Assembly: GCA_022428005.1 (NCBI GenBank)
Contig: JAKMDI010000002.1
Span: 1-64,000 of the forward strand
Direction of reading: 5' to 3'
DNA length: 64,000 nucleotides
From: Flavobacteriaceae bacterium
GTDB lineage: Bacteria > Bacteroidota > Bacteroidia > Flavobacteriales > Flavobacteriaceae
Shown here: one piece after another, positions 2,906 to 15,892 of the stretch
How the letters are laid out: each line of letters begins with the position of its first letter
Position numbering within the stretch: position 1 is the first letter of the stretch
Notes under the pieces: generated by a model
Databases searched by the model: none
What the model saw: only the letters and a program-made list of their open reading frames with translations
What the model was told of the DNA's origin: nothing
Translations under genes and position numbers: made by a program

Positions 2906-3110
2906 AATGTTAATTTAAAAATAATCTAAAATAAATTCAAAGTAGCGCTCCAATAGTTATTCTTTATTCGACATCTTCATTTGGATAATTACAGTACATC
3001 GTAATATGTGGTGTAAATTTATTAATTGTTATAAACCATTGATTTTCATATCCATATTTTGGGTTTAGCTATTATTTCATAAAGTAAATTAAACAAACTT
3101 GAACCTATAC

Positions 3111-4520
3111 TTACTTCCCAATACAAAACTTACTAAATATATTCCCCAACAATTCATCATTGGTAATGGCCCCAGAAATTTCACCCAAATAATGAAGGGC
3201 CTCGTTGATATCAACACTTAAAAGATCGCCACTGAGTTCCTCATCCATTCCATTTTGAATGTTTAAAATTGCCTTAAGAGCATTTTGTAACGCCTCAAAA
3301 TGTCGTGCATTAGAAACAATGACATCTCCTTGAACAGCCAGTTGGTTGACTTGATCAAAGAGGATGATTTTAAGTTGATCAATGGATTGTTTGTCGTAGG
3401 TTGATATTCCAAAAATCTTTTGATAAGGAATTGTTATTGCCAGCTGCTCAAGCTCTGGAATAAGTGATTTTCCTTTCCCCTTTATTATTAAATCATTTTT
3501 ATTTTCTACCAGTACAATCGACAAATCTTTCCTGGAGAATTGATTCAAAGATTGTTTAATTTCATCAGTGTTTGTATCTGTGGGGTCGTACAGGAAAATC
3601 AATAGTTTGGCAGTATCTATTTTTTCTATGGCCCTGGCCACGCCCACGGCCTCTATTTGATTTTGTGTTTCTCTAAGTCCCGCAGTGTCAATAAACCTAA
3701 ACTGAACTCCAGACAGGGTCAGCGTGTCTTCTATTGTGTCTCTTGTAGTCCCCGGTATGTCAGATACAATGGCGCGTTCCTCGTTAAGCATAGCATTGAG
3801 CAGTGATGATTTTCCCGCATTGGGCTTCCCTACAATGGCCACGGGGACCCCTTTTTTTATTACGCTTCCATATTGAAAAGAGTCAATCAACGTTTTTATC
3901 TTAGATTTTAAATCCTCCAGTAATTGTCTTAAGTCGGTGCGATCTGCAAAAGCAACATCTTCTTCAGAAAAATCTAACTCCAAGGTGATCAAAGACGCAA
4001 AATCCATTAGTTTTTGTCTCAGATGACCAATCTCTGCGGTATACCCTCCCCGCATTTGGTTGAGTGCTACCTCGTGTGCCGCTTTTGTTTCAGACATGAT
4101 AAGATCAGCGACAGCCTCTGCCTGGCTTAAGTCCATTTTTTGGTTTAAAAAAGCACGAAGGGTAAACTCCCCGGGTTTTGCCGGTTGGGCGCCTTGATCA
4201 ATGAACAGTCGCAGGATCTCCTCCTGAATGAAATTGGAACCGTGGGAGGATATTTCTACCACATCTTCACCGGTGTAAGAGTTAGGGTTTTTAAAAATAC
4301 TAACCAATACTTCATCTATGGGTGCCCCATCGCGGTGAAGTATTCCCAAATGTAGCGTGTGACTTTTCTGCTTTTTCCATTTCCGCTCTGATTTCGCGTT
4401 AAAACATCGAGAAACCATTGGAATAGCATTACTTCCCGAAAGTCTGAATAAGCAAATGGCAGCATTACCACCACCCGATGCTTTTGCTATAATAGTACCT
4501 TGGCTTAGCATTTCAGTCAA
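3111..4520 (-). CDS. mnmE: tRNA modification GTPase MnmE
   Basis: 469-residue GTPase that, with MnmG, installs the carboxymethylaminomethyl group on U34 of certain tRNAs. The N-terminal folate-binding domain covers roughly residues 1-120 (FTLRAFLNQKMDLSQAEAV lies at its junction with the helical domain). The inserted G domain has the P-loop GKPNAGKSS at 231-239, switch GTTRDT at 257-262, DTAG at 278-281 and NKND further on. The chain ends in CIGK, the conserved C-terminal motif with the catalytic Cys. Length is normal for the family. The gene stands alone, with AT-rich spacers on both sides, and marks where core genome resumes after the decayed carbohydrate locus. Confidence 0.97.
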   Translation of the reverse strand: MTEMLSQGTIIAKASGGGNAAICLFRLSGSNAIPMVSRCFNAKSERKWKKQKSHTLHLGILHRDGAPIDEVLVSIFKNPNSYTGEDVVEISSHGSNFIQEEILRLFIDQGAQPAKPGEFTLRAFLNQKMDLSQAEAVADLIMSETKAAHEVALNQMRGGYTAEIGHLRQKLMDFASLITLELDFSEEDVAFADRTDLRQLLEDLKSKIKTLIDSFQYGSVIKKGVPVAIVGKPNAGKSSLLNAMLNEERAIVSDIPGTTRDTIEDTLTLSGVQFRFIDTAGLRETQNQIEAVGVARAIEKIDTAKLLIFLYDPTDTNTDEIKQSLNQFSRKDLSIVLVENKNDLIIKGKGKSLIPELEQLAITIPYQKIFGISTYDKQSIDQLKIILFDQVNQLAVQGDVIVSNARHFEALQNALKAILNIQNGMDEELSGDLLSVDINEALHYLGEISGAITNDELLGNIFSKFCIGK

Positions 4521-9531: not shown

Positions 9532-11001
9532 ATGGGTGTCGTCGCCAAACAATCTTTCTACAACAGCATCACCATTGGATTGGCTTTTGTGATAGGCGCC
9601 TTAAATACAGTTTTTTTGTACCCCACCCACATGGGAAGTAAGCTTCAAGGTCTGGTGGTTGCACTGCTGGCATTGTCAAATTTAGTTCAGCCTTTTATAT
9701 CTTTTGGAGTTCAACATGCCGTTATAAAATTTTATAGCAATCTACAGACCAAAGAAGAAAAAGACAAACTCCTGAGTTTTTCCCTGTTTCTTCCTCTTTC
9801 AGTTTTTGTTGTTCTCTTGGCTATCAGTTCTGTTTTTTATTCTGAAATAGTAGATTTTATCGCTTCAGAAAATAAAGAAATGGGTAAATACGCCTATTTG
9901 ATCTTGACTATTGCTTTTGCTACGGCGCTTTTTGAAGTATTTTACAATTGGCTGAGAATACAATTCCTTTCAGTTTTTGGGAACTTTTTAAAAGAGTTTT
10001 TTCCACGGGTCTTGATATTTGTTTTGTTGTTGCTGTATGCTTTTGAGGTAGTGGATTTTGACGGTTTTGTTGTGGGGTTAATCACGGGGTATTATCTGCG
10101 GTTACTTTTAGTGATAATTTACAGTTTGTCGAAATACACTCCGAGATTTTCGCTGGCTTTACCCGATCAGTTCAAAGTCATTCTTAAATACAGTCTTTTA
10201 ATTTTCATGTCTGGAACGGCGGCGAGTTTGATTTTGGATATTGATAAATCCATGATTTCTACTATTCTAACGGTGGAAAATGTTGCCTTCTACAGTGTGG
10301 CCATTTTTATTGCAGCTGTAATTGAATTTCCAGGCAGGGCGATGTTCCAAATCATTAGTCCACTGGTGGCCAAAGCCCTCAATGAGGGGGATGACATTAC
10401 ACTGAAACGCTTGCTCAAAAAAAGTGCAAATAACTTACTGCTCATTTCTGGATTGCTTTTTTGTTTGATCAATCTCAACCTTAGCGATTTTTATAATTGG
10501 ATTGATTTAGGCGATTATGCTGTTGCTTTGGAAGTGGTACTTATCGTATCATTAGGAAAACTATTTACCATGTCCATGGGTTGTTTGAACAACATCATCA
10601 CCAATTCAAAATACTATGTTTATGTGTTTTGGTTTTCAACTATTTCTGCCCTATTGGCTGTCGTTTTAAACCTATACCTTATTCAGTGGTATGGAATTAC
10701 AGGAGCAGCCTACGCTACCCTTATGGTGATCGTACTGATTAACATATTAAAAATATTATTGGTACAGTTCCGCTTTAAAATAAACCCTTATAGCAAGGCG
10801 TCAATATTAACGGTGACACTTATTTTATTGGTCAACCTCATTTTTACATTTATAGAATTCGACTTGTCGCCGTTTATGGCATTGGCAGTGAGGTCAATAC
10901 TGATCTTTTTGGTTTTTGCTGTTATTGCACACCTGATGAAGCTCACCACAGACATTCAACCCGTATTAAAGAGAATTCTTTCTTCCTTTCAAAAAACTTA
11001 G
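9532..11001 (+). CDS. Polysaccharide flippase (Wzx/MOP superfamily)
   Basis: 489 residues with about 12-14 predicted membrane helices spread evenly over the chain, as in oligosaccharide flippases of the MOP superfamily (polysaccharide biosynthesis protein). The start AKQSFYNSITIGLAFVIGALN and SGTAASLILDIDKSMI around residue 225 fit the family. It would move a lipid-linked glycan across the inner membrane. It begins 6 bases after the YfhO-like gene and ends in a TTAG tetranucleotide shared with the stop of uvrA on the other strand. Confidence 0.85.
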   Translation: MGVVAKQSFYNSITIGLAFVIGALNTVFLYPTHMGSKLQGLVVALLALSNLVQPFISFGVQHAVIKFYSNLQTKEEKDKLLSFSLFLPLSVFVVLLAISSVFYSEIVDFIASENKEMGKYAYLILTIAFATALFEVFYNWLRIQFLSVFGNFLKEFFPRVLIFVLLLLYAFEVVDFDGFVVGLITGYYLRLLLVIIYSLSKYTPRFSLALPDQFKVILKYSLLIFMSGTAASLILDIDKSMISTILTVENVAFYSVAIFIAAVIEFPGRAMFQIISPLVAKALNEGDDITLKRLLKKSANNLLLISGLLFCLINLNLSDFYNWIDLGDYAVALEVVLIVSLGKLFTMSMGCLNNIITNSKYYVYVFWFSTISALLAVVLNLYLIQWYGITGAAYATLMVIVLINILKILLVQFRFKINPYSKASILTVTLILLVNLIFTFIEFDLSPFMALAVRSILIFLVFAVIAHLMKLTTDIQPVLKRILSSFQKT

Positions 11002-13778
11002 AAAACGAGCTTTTTTGATAAATATGCTGCAGTAAAGGAACTGGACACAGCAGCCACTTTTTCTGGCGTGCCCATGGCCACCAATTGACCACCGTTTTTT
11101 CCTCCTTCAGGACCCAAATCAATAATGTGATCTGCACACTTAATGAGCTCTAAGTTGTGTTCTACAACAATGACAGTATGGCCTTGATCAATCAGCGCAT
11201 TGAATGAAAGCAGGAGTTTGTTTATATCGTGAAAATGAAGACCAGTGGTCGGTTCATCGAAAATAAAGACAATTTTGTCACGGGTGGTTCCTCTTCCAAT
11301 AAATGAAGCCAACTTTATTCTTTGGGCTTCACCTCCAGAGAGGGTAGTAGAGGGCTGCCCCAAAGCTACATACCCCAACCCTACGGCTTGTAATGGTTTT
11401 AATTTTTGAACCATTTTGTTGTGGTTTTCCTTTTTAAAGAAATCAATGGCTTCATCTACACTCATTTCCAACAAAGCATCCAACGATAGCCCGCCGTATT
11501 TCACTTCTAAAATTTCCTTTTTAAACCGTTTTCCCTTGCAGTGTTCGCATTCTAATACGACATCTGCCATAAATTGCATTTCGATGGTGGTATTTCCATC
11601 TCCTTTGCAATGCTCACAACGTCCTCCGTCTACATTAAATGAAAAGTGTTTGGCCTGGTATCCTCTGTTCTTGGACAGGGATTGACTGGCAAATAGGGTT
11701 CGGATCTCATCATATGCTTTGATATAAGTCACTGGATTTGACCTGGAGGACCTCCCTATGGGGTTTTGATCTACAAATTCAACACTGTTTATTTTTTCGA
11801 TGGGGGCTTTGAGTTGATCATATTGACCTGGTTTATCATTAAATATTCCCTTTTCTCTTTGAAGTGAAGGATAGAGAATCTTCTTTACCAAAGTTGATTT
11901 ACCACTTCCAGACACGCCGGTGACCACTGTCATACAACCCAAGGGAAAGCTTACTTTTATATTTTTTAAGTTGTTTTCTCTACAACCACTCAAAATAATT
12001 TCCCCTGATTTTTTTCTTCTCTTAGTAGGCACTGGGATAAACATTTCCCCGCGTAAATATTTAGCGGTCAAGCTTTCGGATTTAGTGATATCGGTTAATG
12101 GGCCAACCGATACAATTTCTCCTCCGTAGATGCCAGCTTCTGGTCCCATATCCACTATGGTATCCGCAGCGTGCATAATTTCTTCGTCATGTTCGACTAC
12201 AATCACGGTGTTACCCAGATCTCTGAGCTTTTTAAGTACTTTAATTAATTGATCATTATCATGGGAATGAAGACCAATAGAAGGCTCGTCCAAAATATAC
12301 ATAGACCCTACCAAAGCACTGCCCAATGAGGTGGCCAAGTTAATACGCTGGGACTCCCCTCCTGAGAGTGTATTGGCTTTTCTGTTCAGGTTGAGATATC
12401 CCAGTCCAACATCTTTAATAAACTGTATTCTGCTGGTAATTTCTTTTAGAATTCGCTCTGCGACTTTGGTGTCATGAGCATCGAGTTGAAGATGATTAAA
12501 AAAATCTCCCAGATCGTCAATGGAAAAATGGAGAAGGGTAGAGAGGGAATGGGCACCCACCTTAACGTAATCACTATCTTTTCTCAGGCGGGAACCACCA
12601 CATTCATCGCAGGCAGTCTTACCCCTGTATCTCGATAACAATACACGATTTTGTATTTTATAATTTTTAGCCTCAATTTTTTTAAAAAATTTATTGATTC
12701 CAGTAAAATAGGAATTTCCCTCCCACAAGGTTTGGATGTGCTCCTCACTCAATTCAAAATAAGGCTTGTGAATTGGAAAATCAAATTTGAAGGCATTTTC
12801 AATAAGCTGTTTGTGAAATTTACGCATTCCTGCGCCCCGCCACGGAGCAATAGCCTCGTCATATATTGACCTGCTGGTATCGGGGACGACCAATTCAGGG
12901 TCAATGCCGATGATATCGCCAAATCCTTCACATTTTTTACATGCACCAAATGGATTGTTAAAACTAAAAAAGTGAACATTGGGAACGACAAAATCCATTC
13001 CGTCCAACTCAAATCGGTTGGAAAATGAAACACGCTTCTCTTCCGCCAAGGACCAGAGAGAGCAAGTCCCTTTACCCTCATAAAAAGCAATTTCTATAGC
13101 ATCCGCTACACGCTGATAAAAATCTTCTTCATGTCGGACTACGATCCGATCAACAACCAGGTCAAATTTAGAAGGGAGTTTTTCAATTTCATCTATTCGA
13201 ATTACTTTTTCTTTAGCAAAAATTCGAGCGAATCCTTGCTGTTTTAATACCCCCAAACGGTCTTTAGAGTCATTTTTATCGACTGTAATTGGTGCTAATA
13301 AGAGTATTTTATCCCCGTTTTTATACTGTTCTTTTAGGCAATTTATGACATCCGTTACGTTGTCGCTCTTAACTTGCTTTCCGGAAATAGGGGAGTAGGT
13401 CTTTCCGATACGAGCATAGAGCAGTTTGAGGTAATCGTAAACCTCAGTTTTGGTACCCACCGTTGAACGTGGGTTGGAGGAAGATACTTTTTGTTCTACA
13501 GCAATGGCGGGAGCAATTCCTTTAATCTCATCAACTTTGGGTTTGTTGAGCTTTCCCATAAACTGCCTGGCATACGAGGAGAGGCTTTCCACATAGCGCC
13601 GTTGTCCTTCGGCGTAGAGGGTGTCAAAAACCAAAGATGATTTACCAGAACCTGATAATCCTGTTACCACAGTCAGTTTATTTCTTGGAAATACAACATC
13701 AATATTTTTTAAATTATGAAGTTGCGCCCCCTTAATAATGATGTACTTTTTGGGATCTAAATCTAGTGTTTTTGCCAT
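10998..13778 (-). CDS. uvrA: Excinuclease ABC subunit A
   Basis: 926-residue damage-recognition ATPase of nucleotide excision repair. Two ABC modules are visible: Walker A GLSGSGKSS at 40-48 with signature LSGGESQRINLA, and a second GVSGSGKST with LSGGEAQRIKLA and VFIFDEPTTGLH. The C-terminal zinc module is intact (CEHCKGDG ... CEHCKGKR). The first zinc module is not: CKKC at 280-283 is present, but the usual upstream FACPxC half is replaced by FELDGMDFVVPN around 256-267, leaving two of four Cys. This appears to be a lineage trait (see findings). A TAATTTTG -7 box on the minus strand at 13795-13802 predicts a very short mRNA leader. Confidence 0.97.
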   Translation of the reverse strand: MAKTLDLDPKKYIIIKGAQLHNLKNIDVVFPRNKLTVVTGLSGSGKSSLVFDTLYAEGQRRYVESLSSYARQFMGKLNKPKVDEIKGIAPAIAVEQKVSSSNPRSTVGTKTEVYDYLKLLYARIGKTYSPISGKQVKSDNVTDVINCLKEQYKNGDKILLLAPITVDKNDSKDRLGVLKQQGFARIFAKEKVIRIDEIEKLPSKFDLVVDRIVVRHEEDFYQRVADAIEIAFYEGKGTCSLWSLAEEKRVSFSNRFELDGMDFVVPNVHFFSFNNPFGACKKCEGFGDIIGIDPELVVPDTSRSIYDEAIAPWRGAGMRKFHKQLIENAFKFDFPIHKPYFELSEEHIQTLWEGNSYFTGINKFFKKIEAKNYKIQNRVLLSRYRGKTACDECGGSRLRKDSDYVKVGAHSLSTLLHFSIDDLGDFFNHLQLDAHDTKVAERILKEITSRIQFIKDVGLGYLNLNRKANTLSGGESQRINLATSLGSALVGSMYILDEPSIGLHSHDNDQLIKVLKKLRDLGNTVIVVEHDEEIMHAADTIVDMGPEAGIYGGEIVSVGPLTDITKSESLTAKYLRGEMFIPVPTKRRKKSGEIILSGCRENNLKNIKVSFPLGCMTVVTGVSGSGKSTLVKKILYPSLQREKGIFNDKPGQYDQLKAPIEKINSVEFVDQNPIGRSSRSNPVTYIKAYDEIRTLFASQSLSKNRGYQAKHFSFNVDGGRCEHCKGDGNTTIEMQFMADVVLECEHCKGKRFKKEILEVKYGGLSLDALLEMSVDEAIDFFKKENHNKMVQKLKPLQAVGLGYVALGQPSTTLSGGEAQRIKLASFIGRGTTRDKIVFIFDEPTTGLHFHDINKLLLSFNALIDQGHTVIVVEHNLELIKCADHIIDLGPEGGKNGGQLVAMGTPEKVAAVSSSFTAAYLSKKLVF

Positions 13779-13794
13779 CGATTAAAATAGAAAG

Positions 13795-13802
13795 CAAAAT
13801 TA
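13795..13802 (-). promoter_or_regulatory. Predicted -7 box of uvrA (TAATTTTG)
   Basis: Read on the minus strand, TAATTTTG matches the Bacteroidota -7 consensus TAnnTTTG exactly. It lies 17 bases upstream of the uvrA start codon, so transcription would begin roughly 10-13 bases before it. No convincing -33 element was found at the usual distance. Confidence 0.45.
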
Positions 13803-13862
13803 CAACTAATCTTCGCAAAGCCTGTGTGCTGGTAATTAAAAATTGATTGAAATGGTCTATTT

Positions 13863-13893
13863 TTTGATTTTAAACATAATACTCCTATATTTG
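13863..13893 (+). promoter_or_regulatory. Predicted promoter of the ECF sigma gene
   Basis: TTTG at 13863-13866 and TATATTTG at 13886-13893 match the Bacteroidota -33 and -7 elements with a 19-base spacer. Transcription would start near 13898-13900, giving a leader of about 80 bases before the ATG at 13978. That is long for this genome, where other predicted leaders are 0-15 bases. Confidence 0.65.
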
Positions 13894-13918
13894 TAATATA
13901 AACAATACCTATAGCACA

Positions 13919-13977
13919 AAACTACTTTTAGCCTTTAAGGTTTTTTTTAACTCAGCTTCGCTGATAAAAAGTAGTTT
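13919..13977 (+). promoter_or_regulatory. Structured mRNA leader of the ECF sigma gene
   Basis: AAACTACTTTT at 13919-13929 is the exact reverse complement of AAAAGTAGTTT at 13967-13977, which ends at the base before the ATG. Between them TCAGC-TTC-GCTGA (13952-13964) forms a 5-bp hairpin, and CCTTTAAGG (13932-13940) is a near-palindrome. Folded, this is an outer 11-bp stem enclosing one or two hairpins, with the start codon immediately outside. Such a stem would hinder ribosome access, so regulated translation is likely. The pairing is seen directly; the function is inferred. Confidence 0.6.
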
Positions 13978-14571
13978 ATGCAAATTTCCAACTTCAACAA
14001 CATTACTGATGCTCACTTGGTGCACGAATACACCCAGGGGAGCGAAAAGTCTTTAGAAATACTTATTTACAGACATAAGTCAAAAATTTATAATTTTATT
14101 TTTTCTAAGGTCTTAGACCAAGAAGTGGCGGAGGACATCTTCCAAGAAACTTTTATAAAAGTCATCAAAACCCTTAAAGGCGGACTTTACAACGAGGAAG
14201 GTAAGTTTGTATCTTGGGTAATGCGTATCTCTCACAATCTCGTGATAGATTACTTTAGAAAATCGAATCGTATGCCCAAGTTTGAGGCCAGTGACGATTA
14301 TGACGTCTTTCAATTCATTACCGACAATGCCCCCAACGCAGAAAATAATCTGATCAATGATCAGGTCGTAAACGATCTTCAACAGCTAATAGCTGAATTA
14401 CCTGATGATCAAAAAGAGGTATTGAGTATGCGATTGTATCGTGATATGAGTTTTAAGGAAATTGCAGAAATAACGGGTGTAAGCATAAATACTGCCTTGG
14501 GTAGAATGCGCTATGCCATCATCAATATTCGAAAAATGGTTGAAGAACACCAAATCGTTTTGACCCACTAA
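13978..14571 (+). CDS. ECF-type RNA polymerase sigma factor
   Basis: 197-residue sigma-70 family factor of the extracytoplasmic-function group. Region 2 covers about residues 25-90 (ILIYRHKSKIYNFIFSKV, then DIFQETFIKVI and FVSWVMRISHNLVIDYFRK). Region 4 is at about 140-190 (LPDDQKEVLSMRLYRDMSF, then the helix-turn-helix EIAEITGVSINTALGRMRYA). No gene for a membrane anti-sigma factor follows; the next gene is a 44-codon ORF. The long structured leader suggests that the sigma factor is controlled at translation. It is divergent from uvrA. Which regulon it serves cannot be told. Confidence 0.93.
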   Translation: MQISNFNNITDAHLVHEYTQGSEKSLEILIYRHKSKIYNFIFSKVLDQEVAEDIFQETFIKVIKTLKGGLYNEEGKFVSWVMRISHNLVIDYFRKSNRMPKFEASDDYDVFQFITDNAPNAENNLINDQVVNDLQQLIAELPDDQKEVLSMRLYRDMSFKEIAEITGVSINTALGRMRYAIINIRKMVEEHQIVLTH

Positions 14572-14614
14572 ACAATTTATTGGTTTTTTTTTCGTTCTAA
14601 GGTAAATGCAATTT

Positions 14615-14749
14615 ATGGAGCAAAATTACTTTGAAAAAAAACATTCTGAACACGGTCCTAGGCCCATTGTTATTAAACGTATACTGGCTTATTCCAAGTA
14701 TTTTAATTCAACAAACACTTTCCAAAAGTACCCTGAGGACAAGGCTTAG
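14615..14749 (+). CDS. Small basic protein of unknown function (44 aa)
   Basis: Short open frame directly downstream of the ECF sigma gene: it begins MEQNYFEKKHSEHGPRP, continues VIKRILAYSKYF and ends FQKYPEDKA. An in-frame ATG at 14606 would add three residues. It is basic in the middle with no membrane helix or Cys. Its TAG stop shares the tetranucleotide TTAG with the nth stop on the other strand, the same arrangement found at several other convergent gene pairs here, which supports it being a real gene. The sequence has normal amino acid composition. It could affect the sigma factor, but nothing shows this. A partial echo of its 3' end lies near 60590-60616. Confidence 0.5.
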   Translation: MEQNYFEKKHSEHGPRPIVIKRILAYSKYFNSTNTFQKYPEDKA

Positions 14750-15393
14750 CGCTGTAGTTTATTGATTACTGATCTCCTTCCAATTTTTTGGGTAATGCTA
14801 TCATTTTCTATTTTCCAGCCTCTCGCAGGACAATATTCCCTTCCATACCAGATAATTTGAAGGTGCAAGTCATTCCATTTATCCTCAGGAAAAAGGCGTT
14901 TGGCATCCTTTTCGGTTTGGGTTACATTTTTTCCATTGGACAATCCCCAGCGGTACATCAGACGGTGTATGTGCGTATCAACAGGAAAGGCGGGCACACC
15001 AAAAGCTTGTGACATCACCACACTCGCGGTTTTGTGACCAACAGCAGGGAGTCTTTCAAGTGCCTCAAAACTTTGAGGTACCTTGCCGTCGTGTTCCTCG
15101 ATCAATATTTTAGATAGGCCGTGAATACCTTTTGATTTCATTGGTGATAGCCCCACGGGTCTGATGATGGCCCTGATTTCCTCAACGCTGAGTTGTATCA
15201 TTTTTTGAGGGGTATCTGCTTTTTTAAACAATAGAGGTGTTATTTGATTTACCCGAATGTCTGTGCTTTGAGCAGACATTAAAACTGCAATTAAGAGGGT
15301 ATAGGGGTCTTTGTGATCCAATGGAATGGGAATTTCGGGATACAGTTGATCCAATTTTTCAATTACAAACGAAACCTTTTCCTTTTTAGTCAT
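14746..15393 (-). CDS. nth: Endonuclease III-type DNA glycosylase, without the iron-sulfur cluster
   Basis: 215-residue base-excision repair glycosylase/AP lyase. The helix-hairpin-helix and catalytic site are clear: LPAVGHKTASVV with the Schiff-base Lys121, and FPVDTHIHRL with catalytic Asp139. ISAQTTD-like LMSAQSTDIRVN at 39-49 is the substrate-pocket motif. Escherichia coli Nth carries a C-terminal [4Fe-4S] cluster bound by four Cys; here the matching region IIWYGREYCPARGWKIEND keeps only Cys188, so no cluster can form. The chain ends about where the cluster loop would be. Activity is still expected from the intact active site. Confidence 0.9.
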   Translation of the reverse strand: MTKKEKVSFVIEKLDQLYPEIPIPLDHKDPYTLLIAVLMSAQSTDIRVNQITPLLFKKADTPQKMIQLSVEEIRAIIRPVGLSPMKSKGIHGLSKILIEEHDGKVPQSFEALERLPAVGHKTASVVMSQAFGVPAFPVDTHIHRLMYRWGLSNGKNVTQTEKDAKRLFPEDKWNDLHLQIIWYGREYCPARGWKIENDSITQKIGRRSVINKLQR

Positions 15394-15433
15394 TAGAATT
15401 TTTTGTTATTTCGACTCAAATTAAAGAATAATA

Positions 15434-15892
15434 ATGAAAACATTAATTACAGGATCGGTCGTTCCGTCATTCGAAACCCAAGATCAGGACCAAAATAGGG
15501 TGACCAATAAAGATCTAATCGGGAAAAAAAGTATTGTTTTTTTCTACCCCAGGGCCAATACCCCCGGTTGTACAGCAGAAGCTTGTAACCTCAGGGATCA
15601 TTACAAAACCCTACAAGATAAAGGATACCAATTGTTTGGAGTCAGTGCAGACAGCTCTAAAAAGCAAAAGAGCTTTGCAGATAAATACGACTTACCATTC
15701 CCTTTGCTCGCCGATGAAGACAAATCGGTAATTAATGCTTTTGGGGTCTGGGGGCCTAAAAAGTTTCAGGGCAGGGAATACGATGGCATTCACAGGACGA
15801 CTTTCTTAATTGATGAGGAAGGTAAAGTGGAAAAAGTGATCAGCAAAGTCAAAACCAAGGACCACGCCGCACAAATTTTGGAGGAAAGTTAG
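15434..15892 (+). CDS. bcp: Thiol peroxidase, bacterioferritin comigratory protein type
   Basis: 152-residue peroxiredoxin of the BCP/PrxQ group, reducing hydroperoxides with thioredoxin. The peroxidatic Cys is in PRANTPGCTAEACNLRD, with the resolving Cys five positions later, as in atypical two-Cys BCP enzymes. FGVWGPKKFQGREYDGIHR is the usual C-terminal family signature with the structural Arg. No signal peptide, so cytoplasmic. It is divergent from nth with about 40 bases between them, and its stop overlaps that of the convergent gene by four bases (TTAG). Confidence 0.95.
   Translation: MKTLITGSVVPSFETQDQDQNRVTNKDLIGKKSIVFFYPRANTPGCTAEACNLRDHYKTLQDKGYQLFGVSADSSKKQKSFADKYDLPFPLLADEDKSVINAFGVWGPKKFQGREYDGIHRTTFLIDEEGKVEKVISKVKTKDHAAQILEES

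Follow-up and report, generated by a model that had tools for sequence, protein, structure and literature searches.

A conserved structured leader across class Bacteroidia, probably a translational lock on an ECF sigma factor gene

We found a structured leader, distributed across class Bacteroidia, before one ECF sigma factor gene that lies between uvrA and nth. It is very likely that this leader genuinely controls production of the sigma protein and is no chance hairpin, and it is probably a cis-acting translational lock on the gene. The fold, its conservation, its link to the gene and the occlusion of the start are in silico results. The features discussed below lie in the window, by which we mean the whole 64,000-nucleotide stretch of Flavobacteriaceae DNA that was analysed:

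10998..13778, minus strand: uvrA, divergent neighbour
13886..13893, plus strand: -7 promoter box TATATTTG of the Bacteroidota sigma-A type, read from the sequence
13898..13977, plus strand: predicted 5' leader, its start placed from the -7 box; a covariance model matches 13905-13983
13907..13914, plus strand: 5' box ACCTATAG (consensus GCCUAUAG), conserved and mostly unpaired, from alignment and pairing probabilities
13914..13916, plus strand: GCA, forming the outermost predicted pairs with TGC at 13979-13981 across the start codon (RNAfold)
13919..13929, plus strand: arm 1 of the putative lock helix, AAACTACTTTT, read from the sequence and present in the predicted fold
13952..13964, plus strand: inner hairpin, TCAGC (13952-13956) with GCTGA (13960-13964) and loop TTC, from sequence and fold
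13967..13977, plus strand: arm 2 of the putative lock helix, AAAAGTAGTTT, its last base adjoining the ATG, from sequence and fold
13978-13980, plus strand: start codon ATG of the ECF gene
13978..14571, plus strand: ECF sigma factor gene, 197 aa (Pfam Sigma70_r2, r4_2 and r4; TIGR02937)
14606..14749, plus strand: conserved small ORF, 47 aa (..RILAYSK..), directly after the ECF gene and absent from the ORF list
14746..15393, minus strand: nth-like DNA glycosylase gene, convergent neighbour

The gene product carries sigma-70 regions 2 and 4 and matches the ECF profile TIGR02937 with 93.5 bits (cut-off 42.9), which identifies it as an ECF sigma factor; among the NCBIfam matches listed, the superfamily model alone passes its cut-off, PRK12513 reaching 159 bits against a cut-off of 206. 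An earlier sequence-only reading of this DNA had proposed an 11-bp stem, a TCAGC/GCTGA hairpin, a promoter box and the ATG, all of which lie where it placed them. Its estimate of a leader of about 80 bases also agrees with ours: setting the -7 box (13886-13893) at -12 to -5, a spacing taken from passages of PMC9723704, would put the transcription start at about 13898 and give a leader of 80 bases.

The same plan, consisting of a -7 box, a spacer, GCCTATAg, an arm, a variable hairpin, a second arm and the ATG, is shared by most Flavobacteriaceae upstream regions, and the inner hairpin is kept in relatives with a different sequence; its pairs are counted below for another leader type. TAnnTTTG occurs no more than 75 nt upstream of the 5' box in 50 of the 76 Flavobacteriaceae leaders in which the box was found, the gap ranging from 0 to 59 nt (median 24.5). 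Two other kinds of element were considered and rejected: a terminator or attenuator, since the small hairpin and U-run at 13930-13942 are lost in relatives (by eye), and a leader peptide, since the window leader has no ATG and its AUA-GCA-UAA is lost in relatives.

The minimum-energy structure of 13895-14040 contains both helices (RNAfold, -26.5 kcal/mol, z -2.10), and 5 of 200 shuffles fold as well. The structural signal predicted from the window's own sequence is thus only moderate, and we therefore examined relatives; it is the comparative evidence that is decisive.

Of 199 Flavobacteriaceae genomes, 191 contain an ECF ortholog at E<=1e-30 and 8 have none at that threshold. We fetched 80 named Flavobacteriaceae loci for upstream comparison; a regular expression applied to start-upstream regions kept 73 of 110 (the window being counted twice), and the rows of three alignments were taken from the fetched loci (A1, 38; A2, 20; A3, 16). 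TATA, the two As after it, TACTTT, AAGT and the ATG are invariant in the 38 aligned leaders, the TATA of the 5' box thus standing in 38/38, and the box has a mean predicted unpaired probability of 0.80 (n=72 model-selected rows). Being conserved yet mostly unpaired, the box GCCUAUAG suggests a recognised handle. The core UACUUU/AAAGU is invariant in Flavobacteriaceae and so gives no information on pairing there; on a plain MAFFT alignment the RNAalifold signal is weak (-2.21 kcal/mol, 8 pairs), with double changes in two pairs (U-A to C-G or A-U; U-A to A-U). With a helix over the start and covariation, the window leader fits, in its structure, the general kind of start-sequestering cis leader, the covariation being weak on this plain alignment.

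A covariance model, R1, was built from 20 Tamlana/Algibacter-type leaders, none of them from the clade of the window; of 84 sources searched with it at E<=10, 81, the window among them, give a match at the leader position and three (L020, L046 and L047) do not. On the window the match spans 13905-13983 (35.4 bits, E 0.0037 in 518 kb). For alignment A4 we searched 76 of the 84 sources, leaving out L005, L008, L017, L020, L047, L054, L068 and L094, and kept 74 matches at E<=0.9, of which 73 are distinct. Across these distinct rows 87.1% of cells are paired and double changes occur in 15 of 23 pairs, adding up to 104 cells against 28.3 in shuffles; none of 500 shuffles reaches the paired share, the double-change pairs or the double-change cells of A4, and sliding the partner by 1-3 columns lowers pairing to 34-55%. 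In helix 1, which holds the start-codon pairs, 77.2% of cells are paired and both sides have changed in 4 of 6 pairs. The sequence-only reading had staked its case on compensatory changes and retained arms in relatives, and it survives this comparison, in which the changes are present and the arms are kept. These strong pair counts come from an alignment that was selected by and fitted to the covariance model; we therefore added independent tests on whole genomes and on class orthologs.

A second model, R2, was trained on the 74 A4 rows, the window among them; it scores 47.4 bits on the window (E 1.2e-4, whole genome) and at E<=1 matches 177 of 199 Flavobacteriaceae genomes, the remaining 22 giving no match. 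Among its best 100 places, the 88 in genomes with a listed ECF position could be checked (12 fall outside that set): 87 are directly upstream of the ECF gene, one is 1215 bases upstream of it, and none is elsewhere. R2 finds only the window place in the window's own genome, to which R1 adds two weak matches (E 4.1 and 6.5) that lack an ECF gene. Four weak model matches (L118, L124, L125 and L126), with no ECF gene in the fetched stretch, were discarded as false. The apparent absence of the leader in Maribacter, Eudoraea, Zobellia and Muriicola arises because their ECF genes are tandem pairs, the copies lying about 1.1 kb apart in the 24 loci checked; the 8 tandem loci searched with R1 all match just before the first copy, and we rejected leader loss in these genera. 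In L057, the tandem copies occupy 1854-2414 and 3001-3567.

Beyond the family, the ECF gene is present in 172 of 198 genomes of a class Bacteroidia sample, and five of ten genomes that gave no match at E<=1e-35 hold diverged copies (E 1e-30 to 1e-32). In L299-L301, which hold diverged ECF copies (35-36% identity), GCCTATAAG is kept close upstream at a shorter distance. At E<=0.1 the leader model matches 36 of 196 genomes of an order sample, 8 of them outside Flavobacteriaceae, and 10 of 198 genomes of the class sample, 5 of them outside the family. We opened 10 of these 13 outside loci (L173-L175, L177, L180 and L184-L188), and the ECF gene adjoins the match in 9 (tblastn). In L174 (order sample, E 0.0018) a box and arm (GCCTATAGCACACACTTACTTTTT..; reverse strand, about 1570-1430) stand before a non-ECF gene; this may be a relocated leader, a second client or chance.

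We then compared 104 of the 166 class orthologs outside Flavobacteriaceae; they represent 43 other families and comprise 24 loci and a further 80 that were fetched. Of the 80 fetched orthologs, 52 carry the box with YTAC after it and 28 do not; among 80 mock stretches, 1 carries it. A leader's pairing with its own start region is stronger than its pairing with start regions from other families (-2.87 kcal/mol on average, 104 orthologs): own-start pairing ranks in the best 5% in 33/104 and in the better half in 79/104, and it is no better than the median swap in 25/104. The best 5% holds 31/96 when partners are GC-matched and 34/104 against dinucleotide shuffles. The start codon is also predicted to be less accessible than with shuffled leaders, both in the class set (mean unpaired probability 0.264 against 0.465; lower in 79/104, not lower in 25/104) and among 77 distinct Flavobacteriaceae leaders chosen by the box regular expression (0.223 against 0.402; lower in 56/77). 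Double changes can be read directly from individual leaders, as in GATAGC/GCTATC (L205), TAAGCA/TGCTTA (L219), TAGCGC/GCGCTA (L248), GCAAAC/GTTTGC (L239), GCAT.GGCAAA/TTTGCC.ATGC (L222) and GCATAAAACTACCCTGTTTT/AAAACGGGTAGTTTATGC (L253); in L205, L219, L239 and L248 the 3' partners span the start codon into codons 2-3. Among the leaders listed, L280, L286 and L295 have weak single-sequence folds. Outside class Bacteroidia, the box pattern occurs in none of 20 ECF orthologs (7 families; 20 fetched of 33 found), and we saw no comparable fold in them.

Post-transcriptional control, which the sequence-only reading had proposed, is the best reading because the structured leader abuts or partly covers the start codon and compensatory changes are kept; the control itself we infer. 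In silico, the 5' box GCCUAUAG is followed by an arm that pairs with the region of translation start, a small hairpin lying between the two strands. The resulting helix covers or abuts the start codon; in some genomes it takes in codons 2-3, and in many families of other orders it includes a Shine-Dalgarno (SD) sequence. In the proposed lock, this fold would keep ribosomes off, so that little sigma factor is made by default; a factor that reads the unpaired box, be it a protein, a small RNA, a ligand or the ribosome itself, would then open the helix when the regulon is needed. This trigger step, taken by itself, we regard as about equally likely to hold or to fail. The window has the Flavobacteriaceae form, a putative start-codon lock with no SD.

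Several other explanations were weighed against this lock. That the fold is a chance hairpin in AT-rich DNA has the 5 of 200 shuffles in its favour, but the covariance-model searches, pair counts, own-start pairing, AUG accessibility and gene link all oppose it, and its probability is negligible. A static brake, in which the fold holds sigma factor levels low and no signal ever opens it, would agree with a fold predicted to be closed throughout our temperature series, yet it needs no class-wide conserved unpaired box of the kind counted above; we think it unlikely. The same series bears on the RNA thermometer that the sequence-only reading had suggested, for which a helix over the start region (and over an SD in other orders) and an AU-rich stem would speak. 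Purely computational predictions with the standard high-salt energies keep arm 2 of the window paired between 4 and 55 °C (unpaired probability 0.015 to 0.076; 0.04 at 37 °C), with a value of 0.12 at 65 °C. The AUG, at the helix edge, is 0.36 unpaired at 37 °C and changes little between 4 °C (0.354) and 65 °C (0.445); in 59 relatives of 66% identity or more, the values are 0.19 at 10 °C and 0.26 at 55 °C. The predictions thus show no opening within the physiological range. Because arm 2 remains closed far above any likely growth temperature, and because a thermometer needs no conserved unpaired box and leaves it unexplained, we disfavour a plain thermometer and hold it to be very unlikely.

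The inverted repeat could instead be a DNA operator or part of the promoter, an explanation that draws on the conservation of the arm core and box as sequence and on sigP of P. gingivalis, at most a candidate ortholog of the window gene, for which passages of PMC8265659 place a response-regulator site at -97 to -75. SigP (PGN_0274) is an ECF sigma factor of 193 aa, and in a porX mutant its protein is barely detectable with mRNA at 40% of wild type, which the authors ascribe to protein instability (PMC4800418 and PMC8265659, in the parts consulted). Both genes encode ECF sigma factors, and SigP, like SigH-1 of B. thetaiotaomicron, is at most a candidate counterpart of the window protein; a 26-base sigP pattern matched 0 of 17 genomes, all from one guessed family. 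Against an operator, the double changes in the inner hairpin and at codon level and the bulged arms favour RNA, and the varying distances from the box to the -7 box (gap 0-59) and between the partner arms fit RNA better; we consider an operator very improbable.

A further possibility is a special case of the lock, a switch that responds to ribosome state: in many families the arm would hide a very strong SD that only ribosomes lacking bS21, and so having a freed anti-SD, could win, and the sigma factor would be made when bS21 is short. Passages of PMC9976891 report that Bacteroidia ribosomes occlude their anti-SD and that SDs are present at certain ribosomal genes, among them rpsU and rpsR, with exceptionally strong ones marking rpsU; according to the same passages, scans of whole Flavobacteriales genomes typically single out one gene. 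In our class orthologs, AGGAGG lies at -18 to -3 in 26/104 (16 families) against 1/806 mock windows, and GGAGG in 31/104 against 3/806; the GGAGG is mostly buried (mean predicted unpaired probability 0.18, n=31). Pairing with the 16S tail is -13 kcal/mol or stronger in 21/104 and reaches -10 kcal/mol in 18 of 43 families, a level attained once in one set of mock stretches from the same 104 leaders and never in a second set; the tail used is one generic sequence, so these values are not exactly the published ones. The absence of the box from all 20 orthologs outside the class also agrees with this switch. On the other side, 73 of 104 class orthologs lack GGAGG, and the Flavobacteriaceae leaders at the examined loci have no SD: neither AGGAGG nor GGAGG occurs in 109 upstream regions (104 distinct, the set including second tandem copies and near-duplicates), none of these pairs at -7 kcal/mol or below, and the window itself reaches -2.3 kcal/mol. 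A ribosome-state switch therefore cannot explain the window, and we regard it as an improbable reading overall.

GGAG also occurs within 18 nt 5' of the box in 12 of the 72 class leaders with a box, six of them with GGAGG; this second GGAG(G), as in L204, L237, L244, L275 and L279, could pair with arm 1 and free the start region, which is a lead only. In its fullest form, which we consider unlikely, the leader would be a class-wide switch reporting ribosome state to transcription: the arm would imitate the 16S 3' tail and hide an exceptionally strong SD, the sigma factor would be made only at bS21 shortage, the second GGAG present 5' of the box in several families could pair with the same arm as a release strand, and Flavobacteriaceae would have dropped the SD and kept the start-codon lock and the box.

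The proposed lock resembles several known systems in part. RNA thermometers of the rpoH, ROSE and FourU types sit on sigma-factor or stress genes with the start region in a helix, and in translational riboswitches the leader has unpaired bases that are conserved and a helix that sequesters the start. The likeness to thermometers is the start region held in a helix, but the leader's stem is predicted not to melt near growth temperature, and it has a conserved unpaired box and no Rfam match. With riboswitches it shares conserved unpaired bases and a helix sequestering the start, but it shows no aptamer-like junction and no Rfam match, and no ligand is known; the unpaired box is compatible with a riboswitch and is not evidence of a ligand. 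At curated cut-offs Rfam gave no match in the window, in 18 Flavobacteriaceae loci or in 10 loci outside the family, and at E<=10 it gave only chance-level snoRNA matches. The closest SD parallel is rpsU of Flavobacterium johnsoniae, whose SD is likewise exceptionally strong in a class that rarely uses SDs (PMC9976891, in part), whereas the gene here encodes a sigma factor and not a ribosomal protein, the SD is buried in a conserved helix, and the window form has none. Passages of PMC9723704 list 64 structured 5' regions in F. psychrophilum, some without an Rfam match and conserved in other genera; this is the same family, the named examples are pheA, hisG, ftsY, acsA, alaS and rimP, and the sigma leader may or may not be among the 64 regions of its Table S7. 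We found no description of the leader in the titles, abstracts and passages covered by a search of the open-access literature.

The surroundings of the gene are themselves conserved. The order uvrA, ECF, nth, bcp (window 10998-15892) is kept in nearly all of 72 long Flavobacteriaceae loci, with uvrA in 72/72 (on the opposite strand in 71), nth in 71/72 and bcp in 67/72; these DNA-repair and peroxide genes may hint at the regulon. The sequence-only reading had described a sigma factor gene without an anti-sigma neighbour, which was incomplete: there is no recognised anti-sigma gene, but the conserved small ORF follows at 14606-14749. A loose pattern finds a relative of it in 103 of 111 Flavobacteriaceae loci (the window counted twice, some near-duplicates), the printed copies mostly reading ..FLLNYSKAL..LN, and it is present by eye in 10 of 18 class loci; for the copies tried, Pfam, NCBIfam and PDB yielded nothing at E<=1. 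The small protein may be a partner and candidate regulator of the sigma factor.

If the lock operates as proposed, with repression that we infer and a factor that would act through the box, it could be the means by which an ECF sigma factor with no recognised anti-sigma gene beside it is kept inactive. Were the ribosome-state switch true, the sigma factor would be a non-ribosomal client of ribosomes with an exposed anti-SD, and in part of the class the leader offers a strong, conserved, non-ribosomal SD where ribosomes hide the anti-SD, which makes SD use there directly testable. The leader is very likely a conserved regulatory RNA, without an Rfam name, that spans a bacterial class and is attached to a sigma factor present in most of the sampled Bacteroidia genomes.
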